A stretch of 64,000 bases of DNA. Source: Pseudomonas sp. P7548. GTDB lineage: Bacteria; Pseudomonadota; Gammaproteobacteria; Pseudomonadales; Pseudomonadaceae. A model generated the notes under the pieces. That model was not told where the DNA came from. It made no database searches and saw nothing but the letters and a program-made list of their open reading frames with translations. The position numbers were made by a program, and so were the translations under genes. Positions within the stretch are counted from its first letter, which is position 1, and every line of letters begins with the position of its first letter. Where the stretch lies: contig NZ_JACARO010000015.1 in the NCBI RefSeq assembly GCF_013386585.1, positions 62,001 through 126,000 on the forward strand, in the 5' to 3' direction. Below, piece by piece: positions 47,655 to 62,523 of this stretch.

Positions 47655-48416
47655 CTAGATGCAGGTGTAGCCCGCATCCGCATTGATGATCGAGCCTGTC
47701 AGCAGGCTCGACGCATCGGAAGCCAGGAACTGCACCAGCGACGCGACCTCATGAGGCTGCCCCATGCGCCCGGCGGGGGTCATGTCCAGCCAGCGCTGGA
47801 TCAACCCCGGCTGGCTTTCCAGCCCATGCAGCAGCGGTGTTTCGATATACGTCGGCGCCACCGCGTTCACCCGCACCCCGCGCGTTGCCCACTCCACCGC
47901 CAATGACTTAGTCAGTTGATGCACACCCGCCTTTGACGCGTTGTAGTGGCATTGCGGCTGCGGCACGTTGACCACCTGCCCCGACATCGACCCGATATTG
48001 ATCACCGAGCCGCGCCCGGCCTCCAGCATGCGCCGGCCAAAACCCCGACAGGTACGAAACACGCCGGTCAGGTTGACGGTGATGACCTTGTCCCACTCCT
48101 CGTCAGTCATCTCCTCGGCCGGCGTGTTGGTGACAATGCCAGCGTTGCACACCAGCACATCCAGCGGCGGCAGCGACGTCGCCAACGCATTGATCGCGGC
48201 GCTGTTCGTCACATCCAGCACTTGCGCCCGCGCGGCGTAGCCTTTTTCGATCAACTGCTGTGCCGTCGCCAAGGCCCGAGCCTGCAGGATATCGGTGCAA
48301 ATCACCTCCGCACCCGTCGCCGCCAAGGCTTCAGCGATCGCCGCCCCAATGCCTTGACCGGCCCCCGTCACCAACGCCAGCTTGCCGTTCAGCGCCTGTT
48401 TTTCCGAATAATTCAT
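47655..48416 (-). CDS. Short-chain dehydrogenase/reductase, sugar/polyol type
   Basis: 253 residues with TGAGQGIG (18-24), NAG (91-93) and the catalytic S143, Y158 and K162 (YNASK). Resembles D-arabitol/sorbitol dehydrogenases and keto-deoxy-sugar-acid dehydrogenases; substrate undefined. Start 48416 has GAGGG upstream; the open frame runs on through an 11-bp tandem repeat, not coding. Its closeness to the FAH and hydroxyacid dehydrogenase genes suggests membership of the sugar island. Confidence 0.87.
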   Translation of the reverse strand: MNYSEKQALNGKLALVTGAGQGIGAAIAEALAATGAEVICTDILQARALATAQQLIEKGYAARAQVLDVTNSAAINALATSLPPLDVLVCNAGIVTNTPAEEMTDEEWDKVITVNLTGVFRTCRGFGRRMLEAGRGSVINIGSMSGQVVNVPQPQCHYNASKAGVHQLTKSLAVEWATRGVRVNAVAPTYIETPLLHGLESQPGLIQRWLDMTPAGRMGQPHEVASLVQFLASDASSLLTGSIINADAGYTCI

Positions 48417-48456
48417 CCCGCGTCCCTCACCACAAATGGAAGCCAGCCAAACACCC

Positions 48457-48500
48457 GCTTTTGCTCTGCTTTTGCTCTGCTTTTGCTCTGCTTTTGTTCT
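48457..48500. repeat. 11-bp tandem repeat upstream of the SDR gene
   Basis: Four head-to-tail copies of GCTTTTGCTCT (48457-48467, 48468-48478, 48479-48489, and 48490-48500 with one change). Immediately followed by three TTGATC units (about 48505-48522). Lies 41-84 bp upstream of the SDR start. Confidence 0.95.
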
Positions 48501-48562
48501 GCTGTTGATCTTGATCTTGATCCTAGGCGCCCCGTTAACCACGCTGGCCGGAATTCGATATT

Positions 48563-48757
48563 GATTTGGGGGGTAAACCGGCAGGGATGCCGGTTTAGCC
48601 GCCCCGCGCCATGGATGGCGCGTGGCGGCGGCCCCCCAAATCACTGTCGGATTACGGGCACACCGAGCTTAAGCGAGGTGCCGAGTGGTGGGGCAAGAGC
48701 CTTTTGGTTACTTTTGGCTGGGCCGGCATTCCGGCTGTTCAAAAGTGACCCGCTGTA
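48563..48757. repeat. Nested inverted-repeat (cruciform or structured RNA) element
   Basis: Outer stem GATTTGGGGGG/CCCCCCAAATC (48563-48573, 48632-48642) encloses two hairpins: 10-bp TAAACCGGCA/TGCCGGTTTA (48574-48597) and GCCGCC-CGCGCCAT/ATGGCGCG-GGCGGC (48598-48629, one mismatch). A second part follows: GGTTACTTTTG/CAAAAGTGACC (48706-48716, 48740-48750, one G-T) around GCCGG/CCGGC, then CCGCT/AGCGG. Probably one copy of a dispersed P. fluorescens intergenic repeat family; from memory, not checked. Confidence 0.75.
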
Positions 48758-48816
48758 AGAGCGGAACCAATAGAGGCCGTAATCCCAATAACGGATATGT
48801 ACCCAGACAAACCGCC

Positions 48817-48840
48817 ATCGCAGGCAAGCCAGCTCCCACA
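48817..48840. repeat. Solitary REP unit
   Basis: One GCAGGCAAGCCAGCTCCCAC unit without a partner arm nearby. Confidence 0.85.
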
Positions 48841-48899
48841 TTTAGAATGCGGTGAGCCAAGCTAATCCAATCCGAGCCAGCTGCCTGCCCTGATTCAGC

Positions 48900-49856
48900 T
48901 CAAGTCAACGCACAGCGCAACGCTTCTCCGCGTAACCCGCGCAAGGCTTCCTCACTGGCCAACCGCTGCAACGCATCCACCGACGCATCAGAAAAAAACG
49001 CCGCATGCGGCGACACCAATAAATGCGGCGCACTGCGCAACGGCGAATCCGCCGGCAACGGCTCCTTCTCGAACACATCCAACCCCGCCCCCGACAACTG
49101 CCCGCTGACCAGCGCCTGGGCCAGGGCTGTTTCATCGATCAAACCACCCCGGGAGCAGTTGATCAGAATAGCCCCCCTGGGCATCTGCGCGATGGCATCG
49201 GCATCGATCACATGGCGCGTCTCGGGCGTCAGCGGCACATGCAGCGACAGCACGTTGGCGCAAGCAATCACCTCGGCCCGCGACATCGGCTCGATCCCCG
49301 ACTCCCGCGCCTGCTGGTTGGTCACGTACGGGTCATAACCCACAATCGTGCAGCCAAACGCCGTCATGCGTGACGCAAAGGCGCGGGCAATGCGGCCCAA
49401 GCCAATAAGGCCAACCGTGGTGTCACGCAGGGAGCGCACACCGTCGACCATCTGCGCGATCTTCCACTCGCCGTTGCGAATACCGGTGCCGTAATGATCG
49501 AGCTTGCGCGCCAGGGCCAGGGTCATCGCGGCAGCATGGTCGGCCACCTCTTCGACGCCGTAGTCCGGCACGTTGCACACGCGAATCCCCAGTTCCTTGG
49601 CCGCCGCGAGGTCGACGTTATCCACGCCGACGCCGTAGCGCACCACCACCGCGCCCGGCGCCATGGCCGCCATCACGCGATGGGTCATCGGCGCGAAGTT
49701 GTTGATCACCGCATGGGCGCCGCGTACCGCTTCCAGGGTTTCGTCTTCGCTGCGGCATTGGTGCTCGGAAAACTGCGCGCCGACCAGTGCGGCGGCGGCC
49801 TGTTCATGGCGTGTGTTGCCAAACGCCTGGTCAGTCACGACCAACTTCTGGCTCAT
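48900..49856 (-). CDS. D-2-hydroxyacid dehydrogenase (C-terminal-binding-protein type)
   Basis: 318 residues: NAD loop GLGRIA (152-157) and catalytic R236 (CSRGGLID), E265 (VFEKEP) and H284 (SPHAAF). Would reduce a 2-keto acid or oxidise a D-2-hydroxyacid such as glyoxylate/glycolate or a sugar-derived acid. Its start overlaps the stop of the upstream FAH gene by four bases (ATGA), so the two are translationally coupled. Confidence 0.9.
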   Translation of the reverse strand: MSQKLVVTDQAFGNTRHEQAAAALVGAQFSEHQCRSEDETLEAVRGAHAVINNFAPMTHRVMAAMAPGAVVVRYGVGVDNVDLAAAKELGIRVCNVPDYGVEEVADHAAAMTLALARKLDHYGTGIRNGEWKIAQMVDGVRSLRDTTVGLIGLGRIARAFASRMTAFGCTIVGYDPYVTNQQARESGIEPMSRAEVIACANVLSLHVPLTPETRHVIDADAIAQMPRGAILINCSRGGLIDETALAQALVSGQLSGAGLDVFEKEPLPADSPLRSAPHLLVSPHAAFFSDASVDALQRLASEEALRGLRGEALRCALT

Positions 49857-50995
49857 AGCAGCCCCCGTTTTGCCAGGTTGCGCATGAGTGCGCGGGTGCC
49901 GAAGGTCCAGGGCGCGGCTTCGTCGGAGTACACGACGGTATTGCGCAAGGTGCCCAGCAGCGGCGTGGAAATTTCCACCAGGTCGCCGGCCTTATGGGTA
50001 AAGCCCGAGCCCTTTTTCTCGCGGTCCTGGGTCGGCGCAAACATGGTGCCGAGGAACAGCATGAAGCCGTCCGGGTACTGGTGCGAATTGTTGCGGGTCT
50101 GCTCGACCAGGTTCGCCGGCTTGCGGCTGATCTCGGCCATGTTCGAACCGCCGGACATTTCAAAACCGTCGAGGCCGCTGACCGACAGGGTGAGGGTCGC
50201 GTTTTCAATGTCGGTCAGGGTGAAGTGCTCGTCGAACAGGCGAATAAACGGCCCGATGGAGCACGAGGCGTTGTTGTCCTTGGCCTTGCCCAGCAGCAGC
50301 GCCGAGCGGCCTTCCACGTCGCGCAGGTTCACGTCATTGCCCAGGGTGGCGCCACGGATATTGCCCTGGCTGTCCACCGCCAGCACCACTTCGGGCTCGG
50401 GGTTGTTCCACTCGGAAATACGGTTGATGCCCACCTGTGCGCCGTAACCGACTGCCGCCATGGGCTGGGATTTGGTGAACACCTCGGCGTCCGGGCCGAT
50501 GCCCACTTCCAGGTATTGCGACCACAGGCCTTCGGCTATCAGCGCAGCCTTGATCTCGGCCGCCTTGGCGGAACCGGCCTGCACATTGGACAGGCTGTCG
50601 CCGATCAACGAACCGATCAGCGCGCGCAGTTCATTGGCCCGGCCGGGATCGCCCGCCGTGCGCTCATCAATCACGCGTTCGACCATACTTCTGGCAAAGG
50701 TCACGCCGCAGGCCTTGAGCGCCTGGAAATCGCACGGTGCCAGCAGGCAAGGGCGGTCCGAGTGATAGCCCATCTCGGAAGGCTCAAGGATCAAGTCTGC
50801 GAGGTCGCCCACCGGCTCACCGGCCAGGGTGTCGAAGCGTTCGGCAGGGTTGTTGTCGAGAAAATCGGCCATGGAGACCACGGACGGCGTGACGTCGATC
50901 AGCACGTTTTCGCGCAGGATCACCACGCTGGGGCCCTTGCCGGGAAGCCAGACCCGACCGACCAATTTGGCGTGCTTGAGTGAGATGGGCAGCAT
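49853..50995 (-). CDS. FAH-fold sugar-acid enzyme (XylX/AraD1-like 2-keto-3-deoxy-pentonate dehydratase or diketo-acid hydrolase)
   Basis: 380 residues, the long FAH subfamily. Motifs: VGYGAQVGINRISEWNNPEPEVVL (metal glutamates), LGNDVNLRDVEGRSALLL and LFLGTMFAP. Relatives dehydrate 2-keto-3-deoxy-D-xylonate or L-arabonate to alpha-ketoglutarate semialdehyde (Weimberg route); others in this superfamily hydrolyse 2,4-diketo-pentonates to pyruvate and glycolate. The semialdehyde dehydrogenase at 60333 favours the first reading; the adjacent SDR and hydroxyacid dehydrogenase fit the second. AAGGA upstream. Confidence 0.85.
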   Translation of the reverse strand: MLPISLKHAKLVGRVWLPGKGPSVVILRENVLIDVTPSVVSMADFLDNNPAERFDTLAGEPVGDLADLILEPSEMGYHSDRPCLLAPCDFQALKACGVTFARSMVERVIDERTAGDPGRANELRALIGSLIGDSLSNVQAGSAKAAEIKAALIAEGLWSQYLEVGIGPDAEVFTKSQPMAAVGYGAQVGINRISEWNNPEPEVVLAVDSQGNIRGATLGNDVNLRDVEGRSALLLGKAKDNNASCSIGPFIRLFDEHFTLTDIENATLTLSVSGLDGFEMSGGSNMAEISRKPANLVEQTRNNSHQYPDGFMLFLGTMFAPTQDREKKGSGFTHKAGDLVEISTPLLGTLRNTVVYSDEAAPWTFGTRALMRNLAKRGLL

Positions 50996-51283
50996 GAGGG
51001 TGATCCTTTATTGTTTGATATCTAGTAATGCTACGTTTCGATTTTAAGCACGGTCAAGCGCTCTCGTATGAAAGAAACTGCATTTTTCGCGATAAAAACC
51101 GCGTTTTAAGACTAATTTGCTGAAAAATAAGGCGAATATTAAGTGTTTCAGCCGTTCGTGAGCAGTTTTGGTGCAAAACGAAGTTGAGTGAATTTTCGCC
51201 AGGCTATTGCAAAAAGCTAGCAATACTATATTTTCGAATTAAGCGAGTGGTTCAACCGCCAAGACCGGTGACGGAGCAGTTCG
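50996..51283. promoter_or_regulatory. Divergent control region of the sugar island
   Basis: 288 bp, AT-rich relative to its neighbours. ATTTTCG or TTTTTCG recurs (about 51083, 51192, 51230) and an inverted ATTGC/GCAAT pair lies around 51206-51224. Probable operator region for the RpiR regulator, but no site is proven. Confidence 0.45.
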
Positions 51284-52768
51284 ATGCATAACAATAAGAT
51301 TCACGGCGACACGATTGCCGCGCTGCAAGGCGCTTTGTTTATCGAGGGTCAGCTGCGCAAAGGCGCCGGCGCTCAGTTGCCGGTGGAGAACCCGGCGACC
51401 GGTGAGGTGCTGGGGCATATCGCCGCTGCCACGCCGCAAGAAATCAACGAGACCGTGGCCGCTGCACGCCGTGCCTTTCTACTGTGGTCCCGCGAACTGC
51501 CGAAAACCCGCGCCAGCGCCTTGCATCGTTTGGGCGACTTGATCGCCGCCGATGCGCAGACCCTGGCACAGGTGATGACCGCCGAGCAGGGCAAGCCCGT
51601 CAATGAAGCCCGTGGCGAAGTGCTCAAGCTCGCCGAGGCCTGCCACTTCTATGCAGAAGAAGCCACCCGCGTGCACGGCGAGATCGTGCCCAACGACCAA
51701 CCGGGTTTCCAGAGCCTGGTGGTGCGCGAGCCGATTGGCGTCGTCGCTGCGATTACGCCGTGGAACTACCCGGCCGAGCTGGTCGGCTGGAAGCTCTGTG
51801 CGAGCCTGGCCGCTGGTTGCACCATCGTGATCAAGCCTGCCGAGCTGACGCCGTTCACCGCGCTGGCCATTGCGCAAAAATGCATCGAAGCCGGGATCCC
51901 CGCAGGCGTGGTCAATGTGTTGACCGGCAAGGGTTCGGTGGTCGGCCAGGCGCTGGTCGAACACCCGGACGTCAGCAAAGTCGCGTTTACCGGTTCCAGT
52001 GCCGTGGGCCTGCATATCCAGCGCAGTTGCCCGCAGGTCAAGCGCCTGTCCCTGGAACTGGGTGGCAACTGCCCGATGGTGGTCACCGCCAGCGCGGATA
52101 TCGCCGCTGCCGTCAAAGGCGCCACGCGCCGCAGCTTCCGTAACTGCGGGCAGATCTGCATCGCGATCAACCGCATCTATGTGCACCGTTCGATCTACGA
52201 AACATTCGTCACCCAGCTGGGCGCCGCCGCCGAGGCGCTGACGGTGCGCAACGGCCTGGAAAACCCCGGCGCCGATTTGGGCGCCATGGCCTCCGCTGAG
52301 CCCCTGAACAAAACCCGCGCCCACCTTGAAGACGCACTGGCCAAAGGCGCACGTCTGGTCGCTGGCGGTAAGGCGCCCGAAGGCGAGGAGTTCGCCCACG
52401 GGCATTTCTTCCGCCCCACCGTGGTCGCCGACTGTACCCACCAGATGCTGGTCATGAGCGAAGAAACCTTCGGCCCGCTGGTGGGTGTCGCGCCCTTCGA
52501 TGACCTGGCCGAAGCCGTGCACCTGGCCAACGACACGCCTTACGGGCTGGCCGCGTATGTGTACGCCCGGGACCTGGTGGACATCCACACCCTGTCGGCT
52601 CAACTCGACTACGGCAACGTGGCGATCAATAACGTCGACGCCGGGATCATGAATGCGCCCTATGGCGGCCGCAAACAGAGTGGCGTGGGTTACGAGCACG
52701 GGCGCGAAGGGTTGCTGGAGTACTTCAACTTCAAGCATGTGCGCCTGCACCACGGCGTCGGGAATTGA
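51284..52768 (+). CDS. NAD(P)-dependent aldehyde dehydrogenase, succinate-semialdehyde type
   Basis: 494-residue ALDH with catalytic E258 (LELGGNCP) and C292 (NCGQIC), Rossmann motif FTGSSAVG and SEETFGPL near the end. Closest in appearance to succinate/glutarate semialdehyde or lactaldehyde/glycolaldehyde dehydrogenases. First gene of the rightward operon, GGAG upstream; three bp before the kinase gene. Substrate presumably an aldehyde arising in the sugar route. Confidence 0.9.
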   Translation: MHNNKIHGDTIAALQGALFIEGQLRKGAGAQLPVENPATGEVLGHIAAATPQEINETVAAARRAFLLWSRELPKTRASALHRLGDLIAADAQTLAQVMTAEQGKPVNEARGEVLKLAEACHFYAEEATRVHGEIVPNDQPGFQSLVVREPIGVVAAITPWNYPAELVGWKLCASLAAGCTIVIKPAELTPFTALAIAQKCIEAGIPAGVVNVLTGKGSVVGQALVEHPDVSKVAFTGSSAVGLHIQRSCPQVKRLSLELGGNCPMVVTASADIAAAVKGATRRSFRNCGQICIAINRIYVHRSIYETFVTQLGAAAEALTVRNGLENPGADLGAMASAEPLNKTRAHLEDALAKGARLVAGGKAPEGEEFAHGHFFRPTVVADCTHQMLVMSEETFGPLVGVAPFDDLAEAVHLANDTPYGLAAYVYARDLVDIHTLSAQLDYGNVAINNVDAGIMNAPYGGRKQSGVGYEHGREGLLEYFNFKHVRLHHGVGN

Positions 52769-52771
52769 GCC

Positions 52772-54271
52772 ATGCAGGCCCTTATTGGTATCGACATCGG
52801 CACCTCCGGGTGCAAGGCGTTGCTGCTGGACGCCCATGGCGCGGTGATTGCCGCCGACACGGCGACGTATCCGCTGTCCCAACCGCGGCCCGGCTGGACC
52901 GAACAAGACCCTGAACTGTGGATCGATGGCGCCCGCCGTGCGATTGCCGGGGTACTGGCCAAGGCGCCCGGCGTGGAATTGCTGGCGGTGGGTTTGTCCG
53001 GCCAGATGCACGGGCTGGTGCCGTTGGACGCCACACACAACGTCCTGCGCCCGGCGATCCTGTGGAACGACCAGCGCAACGCCGCCGAATGCGAGTGGAT
53101 CACCCAGGCAGCCGGTGGCCTTGAAGGCCTGCTGGCGGCCACCGACAACCGCATGCTGGTGGGTTACACCGGCGGCAAGATCGTGTGGATGCAGCGCCAT
53201 GAACCCGAGCTGTTCGCACGCCTGGCCACGGTGCTCAACCCTAAGGACTATTTGCGCCTGCGCCTGACCGGTGAAGTCGCCAGCGAAGTGTCCGATGCGT
53301 CGGGGACCGGCCTGTTCAATGTGCGCTCGCGGCAGTGGGCGACGGGGCTGGTCGAGACGTTGGGGATTGACCCCGCGTTGTTGCCACCGGTGTTTGAATC
53401 CCAAGTGATTTCCGGCCGGGTCAGCGCCCAGGGCGCCCAGCTGTTTGGCCTGCCCGTGGGCACGCCCGTGGCGGGTGGCGGTGGTGATTCGGTGATCCAG
53501 ACCCTCGGCTCCGGTGTGATTGCGCCGGGCGAATTGCAAACCACCATCGGCACCGCCGGCATCCTCGCGGCGGCGCTGGACACCCCCCAGGACAACCCGG
53601 ACGGCCGCCTGCAGATCTTCTGCAACGTCGCCGCCGACAAGTGGCATTGCATGGGCGTGTCGCTGAACGCCGGTGGTTCGATGAACTGGTTTCGCGACAC
53701 CTTCTGCGCCGGCGTGCCCTTCGAGCAGATCGCTGCCGAAGCTGCCGACAGCCCGCCCGGCGCCCATGGCCTGCTGTTTTTGCCCTACCTCAATGGCGAA
53801 CGCTGCCCTTATCCGGACCCGGTTCTGCGGGCTGCCTTTATCGGCCTCACCGGTCGCCATCAACGCGGTGATATGGCCCGCGCCGTGATGGAAGGCTCGG
53901 TCTATGCCCTCGCCGATATGTACGCGTTGATGCGCCCGCTGGGCATTGCCGGGCAGGTGATCAAGGCGTCTGGTGGCGGTGCGCGCTCGGTGCTGTGGCG
54001 CCAGTTGCAGGCAGATATTTTCGGCTGCGACGTGGTGACCACCGAAGGCGCGGCCGAGGGGGCAGCATTCGGCGCGGCGCTGGTGGCCGGGCTGGCGGTC
54101 AACGTATGGCCCGACGCAGCGAGTGCCGCCGCCAGCTGCCGTGCAATGACCCGCCAGGCGCCAGACGGCGCCACGGCCGAGGTTCACGCTCAGGCCCATC
54201 GCATCTATCGCCATTTGTACCCGACGCTCAGGGAAACCTTTGTTGAGCTCGGCGCCCCTCTTTTCGATTAG
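52772..54271 (+). CDS. FGGY-family carbohydrate kinase, xylulokinase-like
   Basis: 499 residues: GIDIGTSGCKALLLD (ATP loop), SGQMHGLVPLD, WNDQRNAAECEWI, GGGGDSVIQTLGSG (catalytic Asp) and KASGGGARSVLWRQLQADI. All hallmarks of XylB-type kinases that phosphorylate a pentulose at C5. Exact sugar unknown; the neighbouring RpiA-type isomerase hints at a ribulose-like product rather than xylulose. Three bp after the aldehyde dehydrogenase; its TAG overlaps the Shine-Dalgarno of the next gene. Confidence 0.88.
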   Translation: MQALIGIDIGTSGCKALLLDAHGAVIAADTATYPLSQPRPGWTEQDPELWIDGARRAIAGVLAKAPGVELLAVGLSGQMHGLVPLDATHNVLRPAILWNDQRNAAECEWITQAAGGLEGLLAATDNRMLVGYTGGKIVWMQRHEPELFARLATVLNPKDYLRLRLTGEVASEVSDASGTGLFNVRSRQWATGLVETLGIDPALLPPVFESQVISGRVSAQGAQLFGLPVGTPVAGGGGDSVIQTLGSGVIAPGELQTTIGTAGILAAALDTPQDNPDGRLQIFCNVAADKWHCMGVSLNAGGSMNWFRDTFCAGVPFEQIAAEAADSPPGAHGLLFLPYLNGERCPYPDPVLRAAFIGLTGRHQRGDMARAVMEGSVYALADMYALMRPLGIAGQVIKASGGGARSVLWRQLQADIFGCDVVTTEGAAEGAAFGAALVAGLAVNVWPDAASAAASCRAMTRQAPDGATAEVHAQAHRIYRHLYPTLRETFVELGAPLFD

Positions 54272-54281
54272 GAGTCTTTTC

Positions 54282-54956
54282 ATGGCCGTCTATAACGCGC
54301 TGATTTTTGATCTCGACGGGACGCTGATCGACAGCGCCTGCGATATCGCGAAGGCCCTGAATGTTGGCTTCACGCTCAACGGCTGGCCGGAACTGGCCCC
54401 GGACCACGTGGAGACATTCCTGGGCAACGGGCCTCGGCGCTTGATCGTCGACATCCTCGAAGACCTGGATATTCCCTACACCGAGGCCCAGGTGCAGCGC
54501 GCGTTTGAAGGCTACTTGCAGGCCTATATGGACGACCCGGCCGGGCGCACGCGGTTCTACCCCCATGTGCGCGAAGACCTGGTGGCGCTGCGCGAAGCCG
54601 GTATCCGCCTGGGCATCTGCACCAACAAGAACCACGCCGTCACCGGCAAGGTGCTGCAGCAACTGGGCCTGGCGGATCTGTTCGATGCCGCGATTGGCGC
54701 CGACGCCGTGCCGGCCTGCAAACCGGACCCCGGCCACTTGCTTGCCGTGGCCGATGCCATGGCGCTGGCCGACCACACTTGGGCCTATGTGGGCGATACC
54801 CGGGTTGACCAGCAAACCGCGCAGGCCGCTGGTGTCATGTTTTTTGTGGTGCCGTGGGGCGGTGGCCCACTGGTGGAGATTTCCCCGGCGCAGCGCTTGA
54901 ACCGTTTGGCTGATCTGTTACAACGCAGCCCACCAATCGCCAAGGAGCGGATATGA
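54282..54956 (+). CDS. HAD-superfamily phosphatase, phosphoglycolate-phosphatase-like
   Basis: 224 residues: FDLDGTLID (D10, D12), GICTNKN, a lysine in PACKPDPGHLL and VGDTRVD. Fits the Gph/sugar-phosphatase clade; may clear phosphoglycolate or a toxic sugar phosphate made by the kinase. ATG 54282 follows AGGAG overlapping the kinase stop; ends with ATGA overlap into the RpiR gene. Confidence 0.88.
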   Translation: MAVYNALIFDLDGTLIDSACDIAKALNVGFTLNGWPELAPDHVETFLGNGPRRLIVDILEDLDIPYTEAQVQRAFEGYLQAYMDDPAGRTRFYPHVREDLVALREAGIRLGICTNKNHAVTGKVLQQLGLADLFDAAIGADAVPACKPDPGHLLAVADAMALADHTWAYVGDTRVDQQTAQAAGVMFFVVPWGGGPLVEISPAQRLNRLADLLQRSPPIAKERI

Positions 54957-55792
54957 GCGACAGTTTGCTGCAACGCATTATTGATGAAAGCAAGAACATG
55001 CACCGCGCCGAGCGCCGGGTGGCCAATTTCGTCTCCACATCACCGTCCAAAGTGCTGCAGATGAGCATGGCCAAGTTGTCGGAAACCTGTTCGGTCAGCG
55101 ACCCGACCGTGATGCGTTTCTGCCGGCGTTTCGGTTTCGAGAGCTATCAGGAATTGAAGCTGCACCTGGTGCAGAGCCTGGTGCCGTCGGCGCCGTTTGC
55201 CTACGAGCAGATCATCCCGGATGACAGCATCGACAACATTGTGCGCAAGACCTGCCGCAATTCGTTGAACGCGATCCAGCGTTTGGAAGAAGACCTGAAA
55301 CCGGAAAAAGTCGCCGAGGCCGCGCAGCTGTTGCAGGCCGCGAGCTGGGTAGGCATCTACGCCACCGGCATTTCGGTGGTCAACGCGCTGGACGCCGAGC
55401 ACAAGTTCCAGCGCCTGGGCATGCGCTGTCAGGCCTTGCTCGGCGGCAAGCGCCAGGAAATGCACGCCGAAGGCGCACGCAGCGGTGAAGTCGCGCTGAT
55501 CTTTTCGCAGTCGGGGCACACCCGGCAGATGGTCGACATGGCCATTGCCGCGCGCAAAGCCGGGGCCAAGGTGGTGTCGATTGCCGCCGATGACAGCCCG
55601 CTGGCGAAAGTCTCGGACGTGCTGATCGCCGTGAAGCCCTACGAACACACCGAGCTGATGACGCCCTTGGCATCACGGCTCAACCACCATTTGGTCACCA
55701 ACATGCTGGTGGCGGCGATTGCCATCGCCAGCGGCAGTCAGTTCCCCGATCAACTGACCGCTCTCGATTCCTGGCGTACCGACAAAATTTAA
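54953..55792 (+). CDS. RpiR-family transcriptional regulator
   Basis: 279 residues: N-terminal HTH_6 domain (1-77; VLQMSMAKLSETCSVSDPTV, MRFCRRFGFESYQELK) and a SIS sugar-phosphate-binding domain (about 125-260; GIYATGISVVNALDAEHKFQ, FSQSGHTRQMVDMAIAARKAG). Likely senses a phosphosugar of this pathway and controls both arms of the island. Coupled to the HAD gene by a 4-bp overlap. Confidence 0.92.
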   Translation: MSDSLLQRIIDESKNMHRAERRVANFVSTSPSKVLQMSMAKLSETCSVSDPTVMRFCRRFGFESYQELKLHLVQSLVPSAPFAYEQIIPDDSIDNIVRKTCRNSLNAIQRLEEDLKPEKVAEAAQLLQAASWVGIYATGISVVNALDAEHKFQRLGMRCQALLGGKRQEMHAEGARSGEVALIFSQSGHTRQMVDMAIAARKAGAKVVSIAADDSPLAKVSDVLIAVKPYEHTELMTPLASRLNHHLVTNMLVAAIAIASGSQFPDQLTALDSWRTDKI

Positions 55793-55814
55793 ACACCGAT
55801 CCGTGGAGCAGGTA

Positions 55815-56525
55815 ATGAGTAATCAACAGAACGAAGCCAAGAAGGTCGCCGCCCGCCGGGTGATCGAGGAATTTGTGCGCGATGGCATGCAGCTGGGCCT
55901 GGGCTCCGGGACCACCTCGCATTTCTTCGTTCGCGAGCTGGGCAAGCACGTGGCCAACGGCTTGAAACTGACCTGCACCACCACCTCGCGCTCCACCAAT
56001 GACGTGGCGCGGGAAGTCGGCATCGAAATCACCGACCCCAACGAGATCGGCGAGCTGGACCTGACCGTCGATGGCCCCGACGAGATCGACCGCCAGTTCA
56101 ACATGATCAAGGGCGGCGGCGCTTGCCTGCTGTGGGAAAAGATCATCGCCCACGCCTCCAAACGCATGATCTGCGTGACCGACGAAACCAAGATCGTCGA
56201 CCGCCTGGGCGCCTTCCCGCTGCCGGTGGAAGTGGTGCAGTTCGGCTGGAAGCAGACCGAGCGCCTGGTCCAGCGCGTGCTGGCCGAACATGGCATCCGC
56301 GAGGTGCAGATCATCCGCCGCGAACGCAACGGCGAGACTGTGGTGACCGACAGCGGCAACTTCATTCTCGACTGCCATTGCGGCCCGGTGCTCACCGACC
56401 CGGCGCCCCTGGAAATCGAGCTGAACCGAATCCCGGGCGTGGTGGAAAACGGCCTGTTCACCCGCGAAGCGGTGGGCATGGTAGTGGGCTGTTTTGACGG
56501 CACGTCCTACGTACAGATGCGCTGA
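55815..56525 (+). CDS. Ribose-5-phosphate isomerase A, second divergent copy
   Basis: 236 residues. The RpiA core is visible: GLGSGTTSHFFVREL, DGPDEID (DGADE in the housekeeping copy), KGGGACLLWEKI (ALTREKI in the other copy), LPVEVVQFGW. Key Asp, Lys and Glu are kept, so an isomerase is expected, but the neighbouring changes suggest a different pentose or tetrose phosphate. Start 55815 has GGAG seven bases upstream; GTG 55803 is less likely. Confidence 0.88.
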   Translation: MSNQQNEAKKVAARRVIEEFVRDGMQLGLGSGTTSHFFVRELGKHVANGLKLTCTTTSRSTNDVAREVGIEITDPNEIGELDLTVDGPDEIDRQFNMIKGGGACLLWEKIIAHASKRMICVTDETKIVDRLGAFPLPVEVVQFGWKQTERLVQRVLAEHGIREVQIIRRERNGETVVTDSGNFILDCHCGPVLTDPAPLEIELNRIPGVVENGLFTREAVGMVVGCFDGTSYVQMR

Positions 56526-56613
56526 TTTCCCGATTTGTCTGGAGCTATACCGCACGACGCGTGAAGAAAGGAAAGACGTACTCAACCAACAATAATAAGT
56601 CGGAGTCACTTCC

Positions 56614-57702
56614 ATGAAAAAAGTCGATTTTTCGAGCGTGAGCCGCCGCAGTGTCCTGGCAGGCGGTGTGGTACTGGGGCTGGGTTCGCTGCTGGGGCGC
56701 ACGGCCATGGCGCAGACCCCGCTGTCGGTGGCCTATTCGAACAAGAGCCTGGATTACTACTTCTTCGTGATCCAGGAAGAGTCGGTCAAGCGTGCGGTGC
56801 TGGCCCAGTCCGGCAAGTTCCAGGCGACCAATGCCAGCTTCGACACCACCACCCAGCTGGGCCAATGGCAAAGCCTGATGCTGTCCCAGCCGTCGGCGAT
56901 CATCTCCGACCCCATCGACAGCCAGGCCATCGTTTCGGCGATCAAGCGCTATAACCAACGCAAGATCCCGGTGGGCATTATCGACACCCCGGCCGACGGC
57001 GGCGACGTGGCGATCACCGTGAGCTTCGACAACTTCAAGGGCGGCGTGATGGCCGCTGAAGAAATCGTCAAACGCCTGGTGGCCAAATACGGCAGCCCCA
57101 AAGGCACCGTGCTCAACTGCTTCGGCGCCCTGGCCTCGGTGGCGTGGCGCCTGCGCAAAGAGGGCATGGACTCGGTATTCGCCAAATACCCCGAGATCAA
57201 ATACCTCGCACGGCCCACCGAAGGCCAGTTGGACAAGATGCAGTCGGTCACGCTCTCGACCCTCTCGGAGTTCCCTGACCTGGACGCCGTGCACGCCCCG
57301 TCGGATTCGCCGTCACGGGGGATCGCCGCCGCGCTGAAGCAGAAGGACCGCTGGAAAAAAGTCGGCGAAAAAGGCCACGTCATCTTCATCAATATCGACG
57401 GCGAACCCGTGGCGCTGGACTGGATCAAGGACGGCTACATGGACGGCTGCGTGTCCCAGGACCCGGTTGCCTACGGCCAGATCGCCGTGGAAATGATCAC
57501 CAAGTACGCCCTCAACGGCCAGGCCGTGCCGCTGGGTACCTACCAGAACAAGGATTATTTCTGGGAAACCGGCGAGATCGTGCAGGGCAAGACGGGCCCG
57601 GCGCTGGTGATCCCGGCGTTCATGATCACCCCTGAAAACGCCGACGATAAACGCCACTGGGGCTACGTCGCGGAGAAGGTGTGGGGCGTGGCCTCCAAGT
57701 GA
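56614..57702 (+). CDS. Ribose-type ABC transporter periplasmic binding protein with Tat-like signal
   Basis: 362 residues. The N-terminus has a twin-arginine motif, SRRSVLAGG, then a hydrophobic stretch and a cleavage site at AMA (about residue 32). The mature part is a Peripla_BP_4 sugar-binding protein (SVAYSNKSLDYYFFV, QAIVSAIKRYNQRKIPVGI, DGYMDGCVSQDPVAYGQIA). GGAGT precedes the start. First gene of a binding-protein/ATPase/permease set typical of pentose or polyol uptake; ligand unknown. Confidence 0.9.
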   Translation: MKKVDFSSVSRRSVLAGGVVLGLGSLLGRTAMAQTPLSVAYSNKSLDYYFFVIQEESVKRAVLAQSGKFQATNASFDTTTQLGQWQSLMLSQPSAIISDPIDSQAIVSAIKRYNQRKIPVGIIDTPADGGDVAITVSFDNFKGGVMAAEEIVKRLVAKYGSPKGTVLNCFGALASVAWRLRKEGMDSVFAKYPEIKYLARPTEGQLDKMQSVTLSTLSEFPDLDAVHAPSDSPSRGIAAALKQKDRWKKVGEKGHVIFINIDGEPVALDWIKDGYMDGCVSQDPVAYGQIAVEMITKYALNGQAVPLGTYQNKDYFWETGEIVQGKTGPALVIPAFMITPENADDKRHWGYVAEKVWGVASK

Positions 57703-57773
57703 TGGGCCGTCGCGCGGCGTGAGCAACGGCTGGCGCGATGTTTATCCGACAAGGTGATGGTGAGAACAACAAA

Positions 57774-59282
57774 ATGACCTTACACCCAACGCCCGACGAC
57801 ACGATCCTGAGCATCGAGAATGTCGCCAAAAGCTATGGCCCGGTCCGCGCCTTGCGCGGGGTGACCACGCAAATCCGTCGCGGCTCGATCCATGGGCTGC
57901 TGGGGGAAAACGGTGCGGGCAAATCCACGCTGGTGGGGATTATTTCCGGGCAGGTCATCCCCACCTCCGGGCAGATCCTCATGAACGGGCAGCCGCTCAA
58001 GCAGGTGGACGTCAAGGTGATGGAGCAGGCCGGGGTGTTCCTGGTGACCCAGGAGCCGATGATCATCGGCAACCTCACCGCCGCGGAAAACCTGATGCTC
58101 GGTATCTGGCCGACGCGCAATGGCCTGGTCGATTGGAAGCAGTTGAACGCGGACGCGGCGCGCATGCTCGACGGCTCCGGCATCGACCCCAAGGCGCTCG
58201 CGGGTCAGCTCGACGCCGTGGCGCGGCGCAAGCTGAACATCCTGCGGGCGATGTTTTCCGGAGGCAAGGTCATCATCCTCGATGAGCCAACCGCGTCACT
58301 GACCGTGGTCGACCGGCGCCAGTTGTTCGACTTCATGCTGCGCCTCAAAGGCGAGGGCGTGACCTTCATCTTCATCTCCCACTACAACGACGAGATCCTC
58401 GAAATCTGCGACGCGGTCACCGTGCTGCGCGACGGCGCCCTGGCGGGTACGCGTTCGGACATCACCGGGCTGACCTCCGAGCAGCTCACCGAACTGGTGA
58501 TCGGCCACGGCGTGCAGCTGTTCCAGCGCAAGCGCCGTGACCACAACGGCAAGGCGCCGGCGATTTCCCTGCGCGGTGTGCGTGGCAAGTGGTTGGCGCT
58601 CGACAGCCTGGACATCGCGCCAGGTGAGGTGGTCGGGTTTACCGGGTTGCCCGGTGCCGGCGCGAAGGAAATGGCCCGGGCGATTTTCGGCCTGCACCCG
58701 GCCATCGGCACCCTGGCGATGAACGGCGAAGACGTGCGCCCACTGCCACGTTCCCCCAATGCGGCGTTCGAGGCGGGCATTGCCTACCTCTCCGACGACC
58801 GCCGCAAGGACGGCGCCGTGGGGCAGATGTCGATTGGCAGCAACATCGCCATGTCGTCCCTCGCCACGCGCAGCCGGTTGGGGTTTATCGACGCCGACGC
58901 CGAAGCCTCGGTGATCAATCACTACTTCGCGGCGATGGGCGTGAAATCGCCCAATCCGGACTACTCGGTGAACACCCTCAGCGGCGGCAACCAGCAAAAG
59001 GTCTGCCTGGGCCGGGTGCTGGCGACCCAGCCACGCCTGTTGATGGTGGACGAGCCAACGCGGGGTATCGACATGGGCGTGAAGCAGGACGTGTTGCGCA
59101 TCATCGACGAACTCAGTGATGCCGGCGTGGCGGTAATCATCGTGTCCAGCGACACCGATGAACTGGTGCGCGCGGTGGACCGGGTGTGCATCTTCGATCA
59201 GGGCACGATCAAGGAAACATTGACGGGAGAGGACATCAGCGTCGAGCGCATCCGCGCATCCGTACAAGGATCCAGCAGTTGA
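57774..59282 (+). CDS. Sugar ABC transporter ATPase, RbsA-type tandem domains
   Basis: 502 residues, two ATPase domains. Domain 1: Walker A GENGAGKST (44-52), Walker B VIILDE (166-171), switch FISHYND, but the signature is LDAVAR (146-151) instead of LSxGQ. Domain 2: degenerate Walker A (FTGLPGAGAKE), normal signature LSGGNQQK and Walker B LLMVDE. The composite site made by these two degenerate parts should be inactive, the other intact. Start 57774 (MTLHP) preferred; ATG 57738 is possible. Confidence 0.9.
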   Translation: MTLHPTPDDTILSIENVAKSYGPVRALRGVTTQIRRGSIHGLLGENGAGKSTLVGIISGQVIPTSGQILMNGQPLKQVDVKVMEQAGVFLVTQEPMIIGNLTAAENLMLGIWPTRNGLVDWKQLNADAARMLDGSGIDPKALAGQLDAVARRKLNILRAMFSGGKVIILDEPTASLTVVDRRQLFDFMLRLKGEGVTFIFISHYNDEILEICDAVTVLRDGALAGTRSDITGLTSEQLTELVIGHGVQLFQRKRRDHNGKAPAISLRGVRGKWLALDSLDIAPGEVVGFTGLPGAGAKEMARAIFGLHPAIGTLAMNGEDVRPLPRSPNAAFEAGIAYLSDDRRKDGAVGQMSIGSNIAMSSLATRSRLGFIDADAEASVINHYFAAMGVKSPNPDYSVNTLSGGNQQKVCLGRVLATQPRLLMVDEPTRGIDMGVKQDVLRIIDELSDAGVAVIIVSSDTDELVRAVDRVCIFDQGTIKETLTGEDISVERIRASVQGSSS

Positions 59283-59308
59283 ATAAGAAAAAGAGTGGAG
59301 ACACGGGT

Positions 59309-60307
59309 ATGAGTACTTTAGTGAAACCCGGCAACGGGGTAGCGCCTGCCGCAACCAAAATCAACGGCCCGGCCGTGCTGGGCTGGGTGCTGCACAACGT
59401 GGTGTGGATCTGGCTGATCGCGCTGGTGGCGGGCTTCGGCCTGTTCAACGAATTCTTCTTCACCCTGTTCAACCTGCAGAACGTGATGGTGCAAGCCACG
59501 GTGCTCGGTATGTTGGGGCTCGCGGTGGCGCTGCCGTTGCTGGTGGCGGAGATCGATTTGTCGATCCCGGCCAATGCCGGGTTCTCTTCGGCGGTGGGCG
59601 CACTGGCCTATTCCAGCTGGGGGTTGCCGTGGTACCTGGCCGTGATCATCGGCTTGCTGGTGGGCACTGCGATCGGCTTCTTCAACGGGCTGTGCATCAC
59701 CCGGCTGAAAATGGTCTCGCTGATCGAAACCCTGGCGATGATGATCATTCTGCAAGGCGCGCTGCTGGCGCTGACCCAGGGCACCACGCTGACCAACATG
59801 GCTGACGGCTACATCTGGATCGGCCAAGTCACCCTCGGTGGCTGGCCGCTGATGCCGGTGGTGTTCCTGGTCGCGCTGGTGGTAATGGGCGTGGTGCTGC
59901 GCCGCACGGTGCTGGGTCGCTCGATCTACGCAGTGGGCGGCAACCCGATTGCGTCGAACTCGGCGGGTATCCGCGTGGACCGGGTCAAGATCATCACCTA
60001 CACCATCTCCGGTTTTCTCGCGGCGGCGGCGGGCTTTCTGCTGGCGTCCTGGCAGATGGCGATCACCTCCAGCCAGGGTTCCAGCTACCTGTTGTATGCG
60101 ATTGCCGCGCCGATCATCGGTGGCGTCAGCGTGTTCGGCGGGCGCGGTAACGTCAAAGGCGTACTGGGCGGCGTATTGTTGCTGACGGTGATCCAGGTCG
60201 GCCTGGCGATTGTGAATGTGCCGTCGTTTTATGTCGGCATGATCGGTGGCGTGATGATCTTTATCGCCGTGGCCATTGACGCTATCCGCGTGCGCTATTT
60301 CGGTTAA
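59309..60307 (+). CDS. Sugar ABC transporter permease, RbsC-type
   Basis: 332-residue inner-membrane permease with about 8-10 hydrophobic segments; LVAEIDLSIPANAGFSSAVG and GRSIYAVGGNPIASNSAGI, AAPIIGGVSVFGGRGNV are the BPD_transp_2 signatures. Start 59309 follows GAGTGGAG; the upstream frame overlaps the ATPase gene. Pairs with the ATPase 26 bp upstream. Confidence 0.92.
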   Translation: MSTLVKPGNGVAPAATKINGPAVLGWVLHNVVWIWLIALVAGFGLFNEFFFTLFNLQNVMVQATVLGMLGLAVALPLLVAEIDLSIPANAGFSSAVGALAYSSWGLPWYLAVIIGLLVGTAIGFFNGLCITRLKMVSLIETLAMMIILQGALLALTQGTTLTNMADGYIWIGQVTLGGWPLMPVVFLVALVVMGVVLRRTVLGRSIYAVGGNPIASNSAGIRVDRVKIITYTISGFLAAAAGFLLASWQMAITSSQGSSYLLYAIAAPIIGGVSVFGGRGNVKGVLGGVLLLTVIQVGLAIVNVPSFYVGMIGGVMIFIAVAIDAIRVRYFG

Positions 60308-60332
60308 TCCATTTCAACTTCGGGAAACGCCC

Positions 60333-61853
60333 ATGTCTTTTACACCCCACGGCAAGCACCTGATCGCAGGCGTTTGGGTCGCCGGCGACAGCACCTTTTC
60401 CAACGCACCGACCCAGGGCCCGGCCCAGTGGTTTTCGGCAGGCAGCATCGAACTGGTGAACCGCGCCTGCGAGGCAGCGGAAGCGGCGTTCTGGAGCTTC
60501 GGTTATTCGAGCCGGGAGGCGCGGGCCGAATTGTTGAACGCCATCGCTGATGAAATCGAAGCGCGTGCCGCGATCATCACCACCGTGGGCGCGCTGGAAA
60601 CCGGCCTGCCGGAAGGGCGCTTGCAAGGTGAGCGTGGGCGCACCGTGGGGCAGTTGCGATTGTTTGCGTCGCATATTCTGGCGGGGGATTACCTGGACCG
60701 TCGCCGCGATGTGCCGTTGCCCGATCGCCAGCCGCTGCCGCGCCCGGACATTCGCTTGATCCAGCGCCCGATCGGGCCGGTGGCGGTGTTTGGGGCGTCG
60801 AACTTCCCGCTGGCGTTTTCCACCGCAGGCGGTGACGTGGCGTCGGCGTTGGCTGCCGGTTGCCCGGTGGTGGTGAAGGGGCACGAGGCGCACCCTGGCA
60901 CCAGCGAGATCGTGGCCGAGGCGATTCATGCGGCGATCAAGCAGTGCGACGTTCACCCGGGCGTCTTCAGCCTGGTGCACGGCGGTTCGCGGGCGGTGGG
61001 GCAACGGCTGGTGCAGCATCCGCTGATCAAGGCGGTGGGTTTCACCGGTTCGCTGGGGGCGGGCAGGGCGTTGTTTGATCTGTGTGCCAAGCGATTCGAG
61101 CCGATTCCGTTTTTTGGCGAGTTGGGTTCGGTGAACCCGATGTTCCTGATGCCCCATGCGGTGGCAGCGCGCGGGGTGGAGATTGCCAAGGGTTGGGCCG
61201 GTTCATTGACCATGGGCGCGGGGCAGTTCTGCACCAACCCTGGCGTGGCGGTGTTGGCTGAAGGTGAGGCGGCCAATGCGTTTATCGACGCGGCGGTCAC
61301 CGCGTTGGCGCCGGTCGGCGCCCAGGTGATGCTGACCGAAGGCATTGCCGCCGCGTATCGCGATGGCCGTGAACGTGTGGCCAATGCCGTGGGTGTGCGT
61401 GAAGTGCTGTCCAACACCTGCGAGCCGCGCCAGGCGATGCCGTATCTGTTCGCCACCACGGGCCGCGAATGGCTGGCCAATGCGTCATTGGGTCATGAAG
61501 TGTTCGGCCCGTTGGGGCTGGTGGTGACGGTCAAGGATGGCGAGGAGATGCTGGAGGTTGCGCGTTCGCTGGAAGGCCAGCTGACTTGCACGGTTCATCT
61601 GGATGCAGCGGACAGCGCCGAGGTCAGCCGCTTGCTGCCGATTCTGGAGCGCAAGGCCGGGCGCATTCTTGCCAATGGCTTCCCGACCGGTGTGGAAGTG
61701 AGCGAGGCCATGGTGCATGGCGGGCCGTATCCGGCGTCGACCAACTTTGGCGCGACGTCGGTGGGCACGATGGCGATCCGCCGGTTCCTGCGGCCGGTGA
61801 GTTACCAGAACATCCCCGAGGCTCTATTGCCCGAAGACTTGCAGCAACACTAA
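60333..61853 (+). CDS. Alpha-ketoglutarate-semialdehyde-type aldehyde dehydrogenase
   Basis: 506 residues of the KGSADH/NADP-ALDH clade: FGASNFPLAFSTAGGDVASA, catalytic Glu in FFGELGSVNP and Cys in GAGQFCTNPG, NGFPTGVEVSEAMVHGGPYP. Enzymes of this clade end the Weimberg-type routes (L-arabonate, D-xylonate, glucarate) by making 2-oxoglutarate. Last gene of the rightward operon, 25 bp after the permease. Together with the FAH enzyme it supports a non-phosphorylative branch. Confidence 0.88.
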   Translation: MSFTPHGKHLIAGVWVAGDSTFSNAPTQGPAQWFSAGSIELVNRACEAAEAAFWSFGYSSREARAELLNAIADEIEARAAIITTVGALETGLPEGRLQGERGRTVGQLRLFASHILAGDYLDRRRDVPLPDRQPLPRPDIRLIQRPIGPVAVFGASNFPLAFSTAGGDVASALAAGCPVVVKGHEAHPGTSEIVAEAIHAAIKQCDVHPGVFSLVHGGSRAVGQRLVQHPLIKAVGFTGSLGAGRALFDLCAKRFEPIPFFGELGSVNPMFLMPHAVAARGVEIAKGWAGSLTMGAGQFCTNPGVAVLAEGEAANAFIDAAVTALAPVGAQVMLTEGIAAAYRDGRERVANAVGVREVLSNTCEPRQAMPYLFATTGREWLANASLGHEVFGPLGLVVTVKDGEEMLEVARSLEGQLTCTVHLDAADSAEVSRLLPILERKAGRILANGFPTGVEVSEAMVHGGPYPASTNFGATSVGTMAIRRFLRPVSYQNIPEALLPEDLQQH

Positions 61854-61997: not shown

Positions 61998-62438
61998 TTA
62001 GTGCCCGTGGCTACGGCCCACATGTGAGTGCTCGGCCTCGCTGGCCGCGACACTCCCGCTGACTTCCAGACGCTGCAGAATCCCGCATTCCGGCCCGCCG
62101 CCGCAGCGTTGGCGCAGGTCGAGCAATTGTTCCTGCAACGCCAGCAGCCCATCAATCCGCGCTTTCACGTGGTGGATGTGCTCGTCGATCAACGCATTCA
62201 CGCTTTCGCACTGGTCCTGGGGGCTGTCGCGCAGGCCCAGCAGGCTGCGGATTTCTTCCAGGGTCATGTCGAGGCTGCGGCAGTTGCGGATAAAGATCAG
62301 CCGTTCGGTGTGCGCCTGGGTGTACACGCGGTAGTTGGCGTCTGTGCGGGCTGGCGGTGGCAGCAGGCCTTCTTTCTCGTAATACCGGATGGTTTCCACC
62401 TGACAGTCGGTCAGTTTGGCCAGTTCGCCGATCTTCAT
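61998..62438 (-). CDS. cadR: Cadmium/lead-responsive MerR-family regulator CadR
   Basis: 146 residues: MerR helix-turn-helix (MKIGELAKLTDCQVETIRYY), coiled-coil dimer helix, and metal cysteines C77, C112 and C118 plus a histidine tail (EHSHVGRSHGH), as in P. putida CadR. It would bend the divergent cadA promoter when Cd(II) or Zn(II)/Pb(II) binds. Start 62438 has GGAG upstream; the frame opening earlier at 62498 would cross its own operator. Confidence 0.94.
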   Translation of the reverse strand: MKIGELAKLTDCQVETIRYYEKEGLLPPPARTDANYRVYTQAHTERLIFIRNCRSLDMTLEEIRSLLGLRDSPQDQCESVNALIDEHIHHVKARIDGLLALQEQLLDLRQRCGGGPECGILQRLEVSGSVAASEAEHSHVGRSHGH

Positions 62439-62461
62439 CGCAGCAATCTCCAAATGGGTGC

Positions 62462-62492
62462 TTGACCCTATAGTGGCTACAGGGTCTTTACT
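62462..62492 (+). promoter_or_regulatory. MerR-type cadA promoter and operator
   Basis: Dyad ACCCTATAG-TGG-CTACAGGGT (62465-62485, one mismatch) overlaps a -35 box TTGACC (62462-62467) and a weak -10 (TTTACT, 62487-62492). The 19-bp spacer is the hallmark of MerR-activated promoters. Confidence 0.8.
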
Positions 62493-62523
62493 TGGCAACA
62501 GGCACCTTTACGGACGCGACAGA

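Follow-up and report, generated by a model that had tools for sequence, protein, structure and literature searches.

A horizontally spread twelve-gene sugar cassette in Pseudomonas sp. P7548 and its possible route to 2-oxoglutarate

Why one block of genes should combine a sugar kinase and a ribose phosphate isomerase with enzymes of the nonphosphorylative Weimberg type is the question raised by a 12-gene island in Pseudomonas sp. P7548. The island lies in a 64,000-nucleotide stretch of contig NZ_JACARO010000015.1 (C53:62001-126000; this whole stretch is referred to below as the window) of a 7.05-Mb genome assembled in 255 contigs. The minus-strand arm encodes a protein of the fumarylacetoacetate hydrolase family (FAH), a D-2-hydroxyacid dehydrogenase (HADH) and a short-chain dehydrogenase/reductase (SDR). 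The plus-strand arm encodes an aldehyde dehydrogenase (ALDH1), a xylulokinase-type kinase (XylB), a HAD phosphatase, an RpiR regulator, RpiA, the binding protein, ATPase and permease of an ABC transporter, and a second aldehyde dehydrogenase (ALDH2). A preliminary description of this DNA had recognized a single island mixing phosphorylative and Weimberg-like enzymes, with one RpiR, one ABC transporter and a second RpiA. Open reading frames and profile scans bore out this gene content and the positions of the named genes, and the second RpiA is real: the other copy in the window (38437-39078, minus strand) is 40% identical to that of the island.

Our tentative answer, which we hold to be a little short of probable, is that the island may encode one RpiR-controlled C5 route ending in 2-oxoglutarate, with a polyol or ketose as the most likely substrate. 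Beyond what had been described before, the cassette is widespread and its hydroxyacid dehydrogenase is swapped for other oxidases in related cassettes. The enzyme families are familiar, and the conserved and horizontally spread pathway is apparently undescribed; no description of the cassette or of a 3-deoxypentose route was found in the parts of the open-licence literature that were accessible.

Insertion and spread of the cassette

The island is a horizontally spread catabolic cassette that moves as a unit. A relative of the source genome, G004, has an empty site in which the matches to window positions 47649 and 61994 are only 175 bp apart. The 12-gene block is therefore an insertion, with the limits that had been assigned to it in the preliminary description. 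In two Pseudomonas gingeri strains (L031 and L092), the cassette aligned with that of the window at 82 to 83% DNA identity while the window flanks did not align. Plasmids of Paracoccus kondratievae and Paracoccus pantotrophus carry the identical 12 genes in the identical order, encoding proteins 68 to 86% identical to those of the window, and this shared order on two plasmids indicated that the clustering exceeds chance. On plasmids, identity dropped from 83% in the cassettes to 46% outside them for RpiA and from 84% to 45% for ALDH1. Within the genus, an FAH of at least 95% identity was present in 3 of 298 genomes, the source genome counted, and an FAH at an E value of ≤1e-60 was present in 88.

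A scan with the binding protein, in which the best 80 of 85 relatives were retained, detected loci in Pseudomonas, Yersinia, Erwinia, Acinetobacter, Herbaspirillum, Caballeronia, the Rhizobiales, the Rhodobacterales and other groups. In a concatenated tree, from which L036 was left out and for which branch support values were not displayed, the cassettes of Pseudomonas, Erwinia and Acinetobacter adjoined those of Paracoccus and Labrys, a placement that fits horizontal transfer. Profile scans recognized no integrase or transposase among the twelve genes, and the window has no tRNA.

Some individual records deserve mention. The Yersinia similis cassette (L036) had no match to RpiR or ALDH2 over half their length and may be degenerate or differently regulated. 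The cassette RpiA gene of the L078 genome (G594:C8:81970-82677) contains one internal TAG stop, which is either real or an assembly error. Two records named Acinetobacter phage MD-2021a (H176 and H177) bear an FAH gene at 54% identity and are possibly misbinned host DNA.

Shared operator, conserved core and interchangeable oxidoreductases

As judged from its sequence, the cassette is one regulon, and its RpiR presumably binds a palindrome, TAGYAWTRCTA, present in two copies 195 bp apart between the divergent arms. These are the only exact copies in the source genome (G000). When one mismatch was allowed, at least one site was present in 50 of the 56 divergent regions and at least two in 34; the total of 84 sites compared with a mean of 1.24 and a largest value of 5 in 200 mononucleotide shuffles. 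In cassettes of the Caballeronia type, which begin with the binding-protein gene, 11 of 12 loci had the operator within 450 bp upstream of it. The possibility that the two arms answer to unrelated substrates, raised in the preliminary description, is opposed by the conserved operator pair between them and by the joint conservation of their genes.

A core was defined as at least seven of the eight genes for ALDH1, XylB, HAD, RpiR, RpiA, binding protein, ATPase and permease, and 72 of 82 loci held it (two short loci, L009 and L010, and L048, which is the same record as L004, were not counted). No locus extended more than 10 kb to either side of the binding-protein gene, and absences can be false; L072, L094 and L095 gained genes once the stretch was extended. 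Part of the locus open reading frames were heuristic, and many genes were named by eye. ALDH1, HAD and RpiA were present in all 72 cores and the SDR was present in 64, while HADH, FAH and ALDH2 are add-ons to the core.

Of the 72 cores, 60 were accompanied by a D-2-hydroxyacid oxidoreductase belonging to one of three families, and 59 of these 60 had one kind only. HADH was present in 19 cores, a family designated X0 in 24 and another designated X1 in 16, with X0 and X1 together in one. X0 was nearest to PDB entry 3pm9 and to human D-2-hydroxyglutarate dehydrogenase and also matched glycolate and D-lactate enzymes, while X1 matched the D-lactate dehydrogenase of Escherichia coli at 744 bits. 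The reference substrates of these two families, 2-hydroxyglutarate and lactate, have no hydroxyl at C3, which fits a 3-deoxy substrate. The Labrys cassette (L034) lies amid cassettes with HADH and FAH in the tree, drawn without support values, and has X0 in place of HADH.

FAH was found in 35 cores, in 34 of them together with one of the three oxidases, the exception (L037) being on a 13-kb contig; ALDH2 was found in 18 cores, 17 of which had FAH. The FAH gene was mostly in the left arm, although L073 and L074 have it at the right end and two Paraburkholderia cassettes have it after X0. The latter two end with X0, FAH and an aldehyde dehydrogenase, and their enzymes and regulator are 37 to 55% identical to those of the window. 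That three dissimilar enzymes occupy a single step, each with FAH nearby, suggested that oxidation of a hydroxyacid feeds FAH.

The same oxidases might instead salvage C2 and C3 by-products, with ALDH1 producing glycolate or D-lactate from the corresponding aldehyde, the HAD phosphatase releasing glycolate from phosphoglycolate, HADH, X0 or X1 oxidizing the hydroxyacid, and FAH and ALDH2 serving a separate pool of 2-keto-3-deoxypentonate (KDP). The resemblance of the HAD protein to phosphoglycolate phosphatases, albeit under the model cutoff, agrees with such a role, as do the closeness of X1 to the E. coli enzyme and the matches of X0 to glycolate and D-lactate enzymes. However, no aldolase or phosphoketolase that could supply the aldehydes was recognized in the core, FAH is coupled to these same oxidases, and NAD-linked oxidation of glycolate is unfavorable. 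We regard salvage as quite unlikely.

A possible route to 2-oxoglutarate and its alternatives

The last steps of the proposed route depend on the assignments of HADH, FAH and ALDH2. Residues that we take to be the catalytic Arg, Glu and His of HADH were seen by eye in its translation. ALDH2 matched PDB entry 3v4c, named only "Aldehyde dehydrogenase (NADP+)," at 776 bits and came close to the cutoff of no NCBIfam model; we presume from context that it is a ketoglutarate-semialdehyde dehydrogenase. The FAH matched PDB entry 9kkt, named only "fumarylacetoacetate hydrolase family protein," from end to end (residues 2-380; 410 bits) and the archaeal 2-keto-3-deoxy-D-arabinonate dehydratase 2q18 at 73 bits, while an NCBIfam scan gave no match for it. 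We assume that it belongs to the XylX/COG3970 type. According to PMC6336799, Herbaspirillum FAH enzymes of COG3970 convert KDP to ketoglutarate semialdehyde by dehydration, and the hydrolase of Route III is defined by His-Glu residues. No His was seen by eye at the place expected for this pair, and a function of FAH as a Route III hydrolase was set aside on this sign, which is not decisive. Aromatic degradation, a second possibility raised in the preliminary description, was rejected: relatives of the FAH act on sugar acids or adjoin sugar-acid enzymes, as seen in the match to the archaeal dehydratase and in four stretches in which an IlvD-type gene lies beside a relative.

In the route that we favor, the ABC transporter, of the CUT2 type, would take up the substrate, the SDR would convert a polyol to a ketose, the XylB-type kinase would phosphorylate the ketose (step 3), RpiA would convert the ketose phosphate to an aldose phosphate and the HAD phosphatase would strip the phosphate. 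ALDH1 would then oxidize the aldose to an aldonate (step 6), the D-2-hydroxyacid dehydrogenase would oxidize C2 to yield KDP (step 7), FAH would dehydrate KDP to 2-ketoglutarate semialdehyde and ALDH2 would produce 2-oxoglutarate (step 9). Kinase, RpiA and HAD would thus form an upstream shuttle of phosphorylation, isomerization and dephosphorylation. We infer every activity, the order and the substrate from gene families and their context, with the greatest uncertainty in steps 3 to 6. KDP normally arises from pentonate through a dehydratase. Steps 7 to 9 would take the place of the IlvD/EDD dehydratase: since HADH would make KDP directly, no dehydratase would be needed, but the substrate must then be a 3-deoxypentonate, and the acid of step 6 must already be 3-deoxy. 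This linear route gives each enzyme one job, and all five carbons reach 2-oxoglutarate.

A more specific form of this proposal is a new pathway in which a 3-deoxy C5 polyol or ketose is turned into the aldose by the kinase-RpiA-HAD shuttle, then into the 3-deoxyaldonate and then into KDP by one of three interchangeable oxidoreductases; we consider this unlikely. Such a pathway, if real, would lead into the Weimberg endgame without a dehydratase. The Fe-S sugar-acid dehydratase step limits engineered Weimberg routes, and the proposed route, if correct, would reach KDP without that enzyme; it would also point to an unrecognized C5 nutrient for very different bacteria. It would further account for a "mixed" cluster whose genes are annotated one by one, the Paracoccus genes being listed as xylulokinase, NAD-dependent succinate-semialdehyde dehydrogenase and C-terminal binding protein. 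The operator and the three interchangeable oxidases make the proposal directly testable.

A pentitol operon with two exits was also considered. The SDR or a zinc polyol dehydrogenase (X2) would convert a pentitol to D-xylulose or D-ribulose, XylB and RpiA would lead into the pentose phosphate pathway, the HAD phosphatase would clean up sugar phosphates, and HADH, FAH and ALDH2 would provide a second exit for KDP derived from pentonate. XylB and RpiA both exceeded their NCBIfam cutoffs, and the best PDB matches of the SDR were a putative polyol dehydrogenase (3awd; 248 bits) and galactitol dehydrogenase (2wdz; 213 bits). X2 was present in 15 of the 72 cores, and genes named by eye as transketolase lie near the cassette in L043 and L084, favoring an exit through the pentose phosphates. 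Against these points, the cassette has no recognized enzyme that makes or dehydrates pentonate, FAH goes together with hydroxyacid oxidases from three families, and ALDH1, in spite of its presence in every core, has no role in the scheme. This explanation appears somewhat unlikely. Of the suggestions in the preliminary description, an unusual C5 substrate is plausible, while two exits are less supported, one linear path fitting the co-occurrence patterns at least as well.

The dehydratase of an ordinary Weimberg cluster could also be encoded elsewhere in the genome. As had been described, the island has no IlvD/EDD gene; the genome has three, all elsewhere, of which two are ilvD and edd by eye. 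The third, on contig C33 (L110:13351-19499), is accompanied by a GntR regulator, an MFS transporter, a 329-amino-acid FAH-family protein and an aldehyde dehydrogenase (named by eye), a set that looks like a complete pentonate pathway. An IlvD-type gene was also found beside FAH relatives outside cassettes in 4 of 39 stretches (L131, L145, L146 and L158; the 39 include two, L147 and L148, that adjoin a cassette). These genes are what this explanation has in its favor, but the C33 gene has its own FAH-family gene, aldehyde dehydrogenase and transporter, and no exact operator lies outside the cassette. The sole PF04295 (UxaA/GarD) gene of the genome is on another contig and, by eye, is presumably a galactarate dehydratase. 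Furthermore, many hosts carry the cassette with no dehydratase recognized in it, although enolase-type dehydratases were not searched for. No lactonase was recognized among the open reading frames, nor was an aldose 1-dehydrogenase in the cassette, the lone SDR being nearest to polyol dehydrogenases. We judge a Weimberg cluster with a distant dehydratase to be very unlikely.

Genomes with the cassette were also examined for an FAH gene at any position. FAH, counted at an E value of ≤1e-50, was present in 41 of 42 genomes, which were hand-picked from 80 loci, mostly those with no FAH in the locus. In 9 of these genomes FAH lies within the cassette or directly adjacent to it, 3 lack the kinase core, and the other 30 served as test cases, out of 37 cores with FAH neither inside nor alongside. 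Among the 30 test cases, 29 had FAH elsewhere and only Palleronia (L045, on a 13-kb contig) did not. The base rate in the order of Kaistia adipata was 96 of 249 genomes, and all 7 of these 249 that bear the binding protein had FAH; this base rate was taken from a single order, whereas the 42 genomes are of mixed origin, and related genomes are not independent. Xylose isomerase was used as a control. At its curated cutoff, it was present in 96 of the 249 genomes and in 23 of the 42 of the cassette set and, at an E value of ≤0.001, in 99 of 249 and 30 of 42. The control suggested that the dependence on FAH is largely specific and does not reflect general sugar use, and the notion that cassette genomes are mere sugar generalists was rejected on this basis, with a partial effect being possible.

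Several observations weighed against the linear route. Xylose isomerase was itself somewhat commoner in the cassette set, and part of the FAH excess may be due to general sugar use. No exact match to TAGYWWWRCTA was found in any of the 39 stretches around FAH genes outside cassettes, and the distal FAH copies therefore do not look like members of the regulon. In the window alone, 6 of 100 shuffles reached two operator matches and a backwards control pattern also occurred at two places in the genome, indicating that the strength of the operator lies in its conservation and position and not in its count. A hydroxyacid oxidoreductase was absent from the examined stretch in 12 of 72 cores. The Acidisoma locus L090 has the transporter, X0 and SDR but not the kinase, RpiA, HAD or ALDH1, and the kinase part is therefore separable. 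The RpiA proteins of Caballeronia-type cassettes share only about 50% identity with that of the window, and in G589, which is of this type, another RpiA is closer to the window's (53%) than is the cassette RpiA (49%); a single dedicated lineage of RpiA is thus uncertain. The transketolase genes noted above fall on the same side. None of the models scanned identified the function of ALDH1 or ALDH2, a kinase followed by a phosphatase would waste ATP, and we are aware of no 3-deoxy C5 compound common in nature that would justify such an operon.

The cassette was also compared with known systems. With the Weimberg pathway or Route II, as set out in PMC6336799 (Herbaspirillum) and PMC10107873 (Pseudomonas xylDXA), it shares an FAH-family KDP dehydratase and a ketoglutarate-semialdehyde-type aldehyde dehydrogenase as candidates for the last two steps. 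The cassette differs in having no sugar-acid dehydratase and no recognized aldose 1-dehydrogenase or lactonase and in adding the kinase, RpiA, HAD and D-2-hydroxyacid dehydrogenase. Because it lacks the dehydratase that defines a Weimberg cluster, it was not classed as one. Route III, in which, as described in PMC6336799, a KDP 4-dehydrogenase is followed by a 2,4-diketo-acid hydrolase, has in common with it an SDR and an enzyme of the FAH superfamily; the cassette SDR, however, is of the polyol type, its FAH has, by eye, no His at the position expected for the hydrolase, and oxidation of a 2-hydroxyacid is added.

Pentitol utilization operons combine a polyol dehydrogenase with xylulokinase. 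They share with the cassette ABC uptake of sugar, a polyol SDR, XylB and sometimes a zinc polyol dehydrogenase, whereas the standard pathway has no use for HAD, ALDH1, the hydroxyacid oxidase, FAH or ALDH2. Since about half of the enzymes of the cassette would be without function in a plain pentitol operon, it was not classed as one.

A cluster of Rhizobium leguminosarum (L116) has an ABC transporter, FGGY kinase, HAD and polyol SDR (53% identical to that of the window) divergent to eda and a gene annotated as glucose-6-phosphate isomerase; no dehydratase was annotated in the stretch shown. It thus shares with the cassette uptake, kinase, a sugar-phosphate isomerase, HAD, polyol SDR and a consumer of a 2-keto-3-deoxy acid but uses another isomerase family and has an aldolase in place of FAH. 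By analogy, this FGGY-isomerase-HAD-eda cluster may be a six-carbon counterpart. The rhizobial clusters L116 and L117 contain eda, glucose-6-phosphate isomerase, a shikimate-dehydrogenase-like gene and polyol dehydrogenases, with FGGY and HAD in L116, and may provide a parallel to the kinase-isomerase-phosphatase detour of the linear route. In Caballeronia L173, X0 is followed by what is apparently the same isomerase, a shikimate-dehydrogenase-like gene, FGGY and HAD (by eye).

Gene features and minor observations

The coordinates of the features are given in Table 1.

Table 1. Features of the island and its border in window coordinates
Feature	Position	Strand	Remarks
Island	47655-61853		12 genes in two divergent arms, between thyA (end 47651) and MerR-like gene
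SDR, polyol-dehydrogenase type	47655..48416	-	PF13561/PF00106
SDR-HADH spacer	48417..48899	.	483 bp; imperfect inverted repeats
HADH, D-2-hydroxyacid dehydrogenase (NAD-binding type)	48900..49856	-	PF02826, PF00389
FAH, candidate 2-keto-3-deoxypentonate dehydratase	49853..50995	-	PF01557
Putative RpiR operator 1	51023..51033	.	TAGTAATGCTA; overlaps leftward promoter-like -10 (consensus only)
Putative RpiR operator 2	51218..51228	.	TAGCAATACTA
ALDH1, succinate-semialdehyde-dehydrogenase type	51284..52768	+	PF00171
FGGY kinase, xylulokinase type	52772..54271	+	TIGR01312, 508 bits (cutoff, 380); PDB 2itm
HAD phosphatase, phosphoglycolate-phosphatase-like	54282..54956	+	PF13419; TIGR01449, 152.5 bits (under cutoff, 180)
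RpiR/HexR-type regulator	54953..55792	+	PF01418, PF01380; NF008451, 183 bits (under cutoff, 296)
Second RpiA	55803..56525	+	TIGR00021, 257 bits (cutoff, 126)
Sugar-binding protein	56614..57702	+	PF13407; twin-arginine-like leader by eye
ABC ATPase, CUT2 (sugar) type	57738..59282	+	
ABC permease, CUT2 (sugar) type	59309..60307	+	
ALDH2, candidate ketoglutarate-semialdehyde dehydrogenase	60333..61853	+	PF00171
MerR-like gene	61998-62498	-	Named by eye

The SDR start was refined to the ATG at 48416, and the start of ALDH2 is most likely 60333 and not 60276. The FAH and HADH genes overlap by 4 bp. ALDH1 scored 479 bits with TIGR01780, under the cutoff of 646. In cassette RpiA, the catalytic Asp, Asp, Lys and Glu were conserved in an alignment with an E. 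coli reference, and the idea that this RpiA is a changed enzyme was rejected since the catalytic residues are intact. Uptake of AI-2 was likewise rejected, the kinase scoring 162 bits with the AI-2 kinase model and 508 with that of XylB. The best PDB relative of the binding protein, at 118 bits, is of the ribose type and distant and gives no substrate. The spacer between SDR and HADH was 483 bp in the window and about 10 to 40 bp in four other Pseudomonas cassettes (L030, L031, L032 and L092); it holds an element of ~30 bp that is repeated about twelve times across the window.

Two other gene sets lie beside the same transporter or a related binding protein. A pair of genes for Amidohydro_2 and FeS_assembly_P proteins adjoins the same transporter in L046, L047, L049, L058, L068, L089, L090 and L096 (L089 and L096 are cut by contig ends). 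The core is also there in Kaistia and Mesorhizobium, whereas Acidisoma L090 has the pair but not the kinase part. In L105, L106 and L028, a related binding protein is found beside a GMC oxidoreductase and another aldehyde dehydrogenase (named by eye), with a BKACE-like protein, also by eye, in L105 and L106; this set perhaps represents a different pathway for a related substrate.

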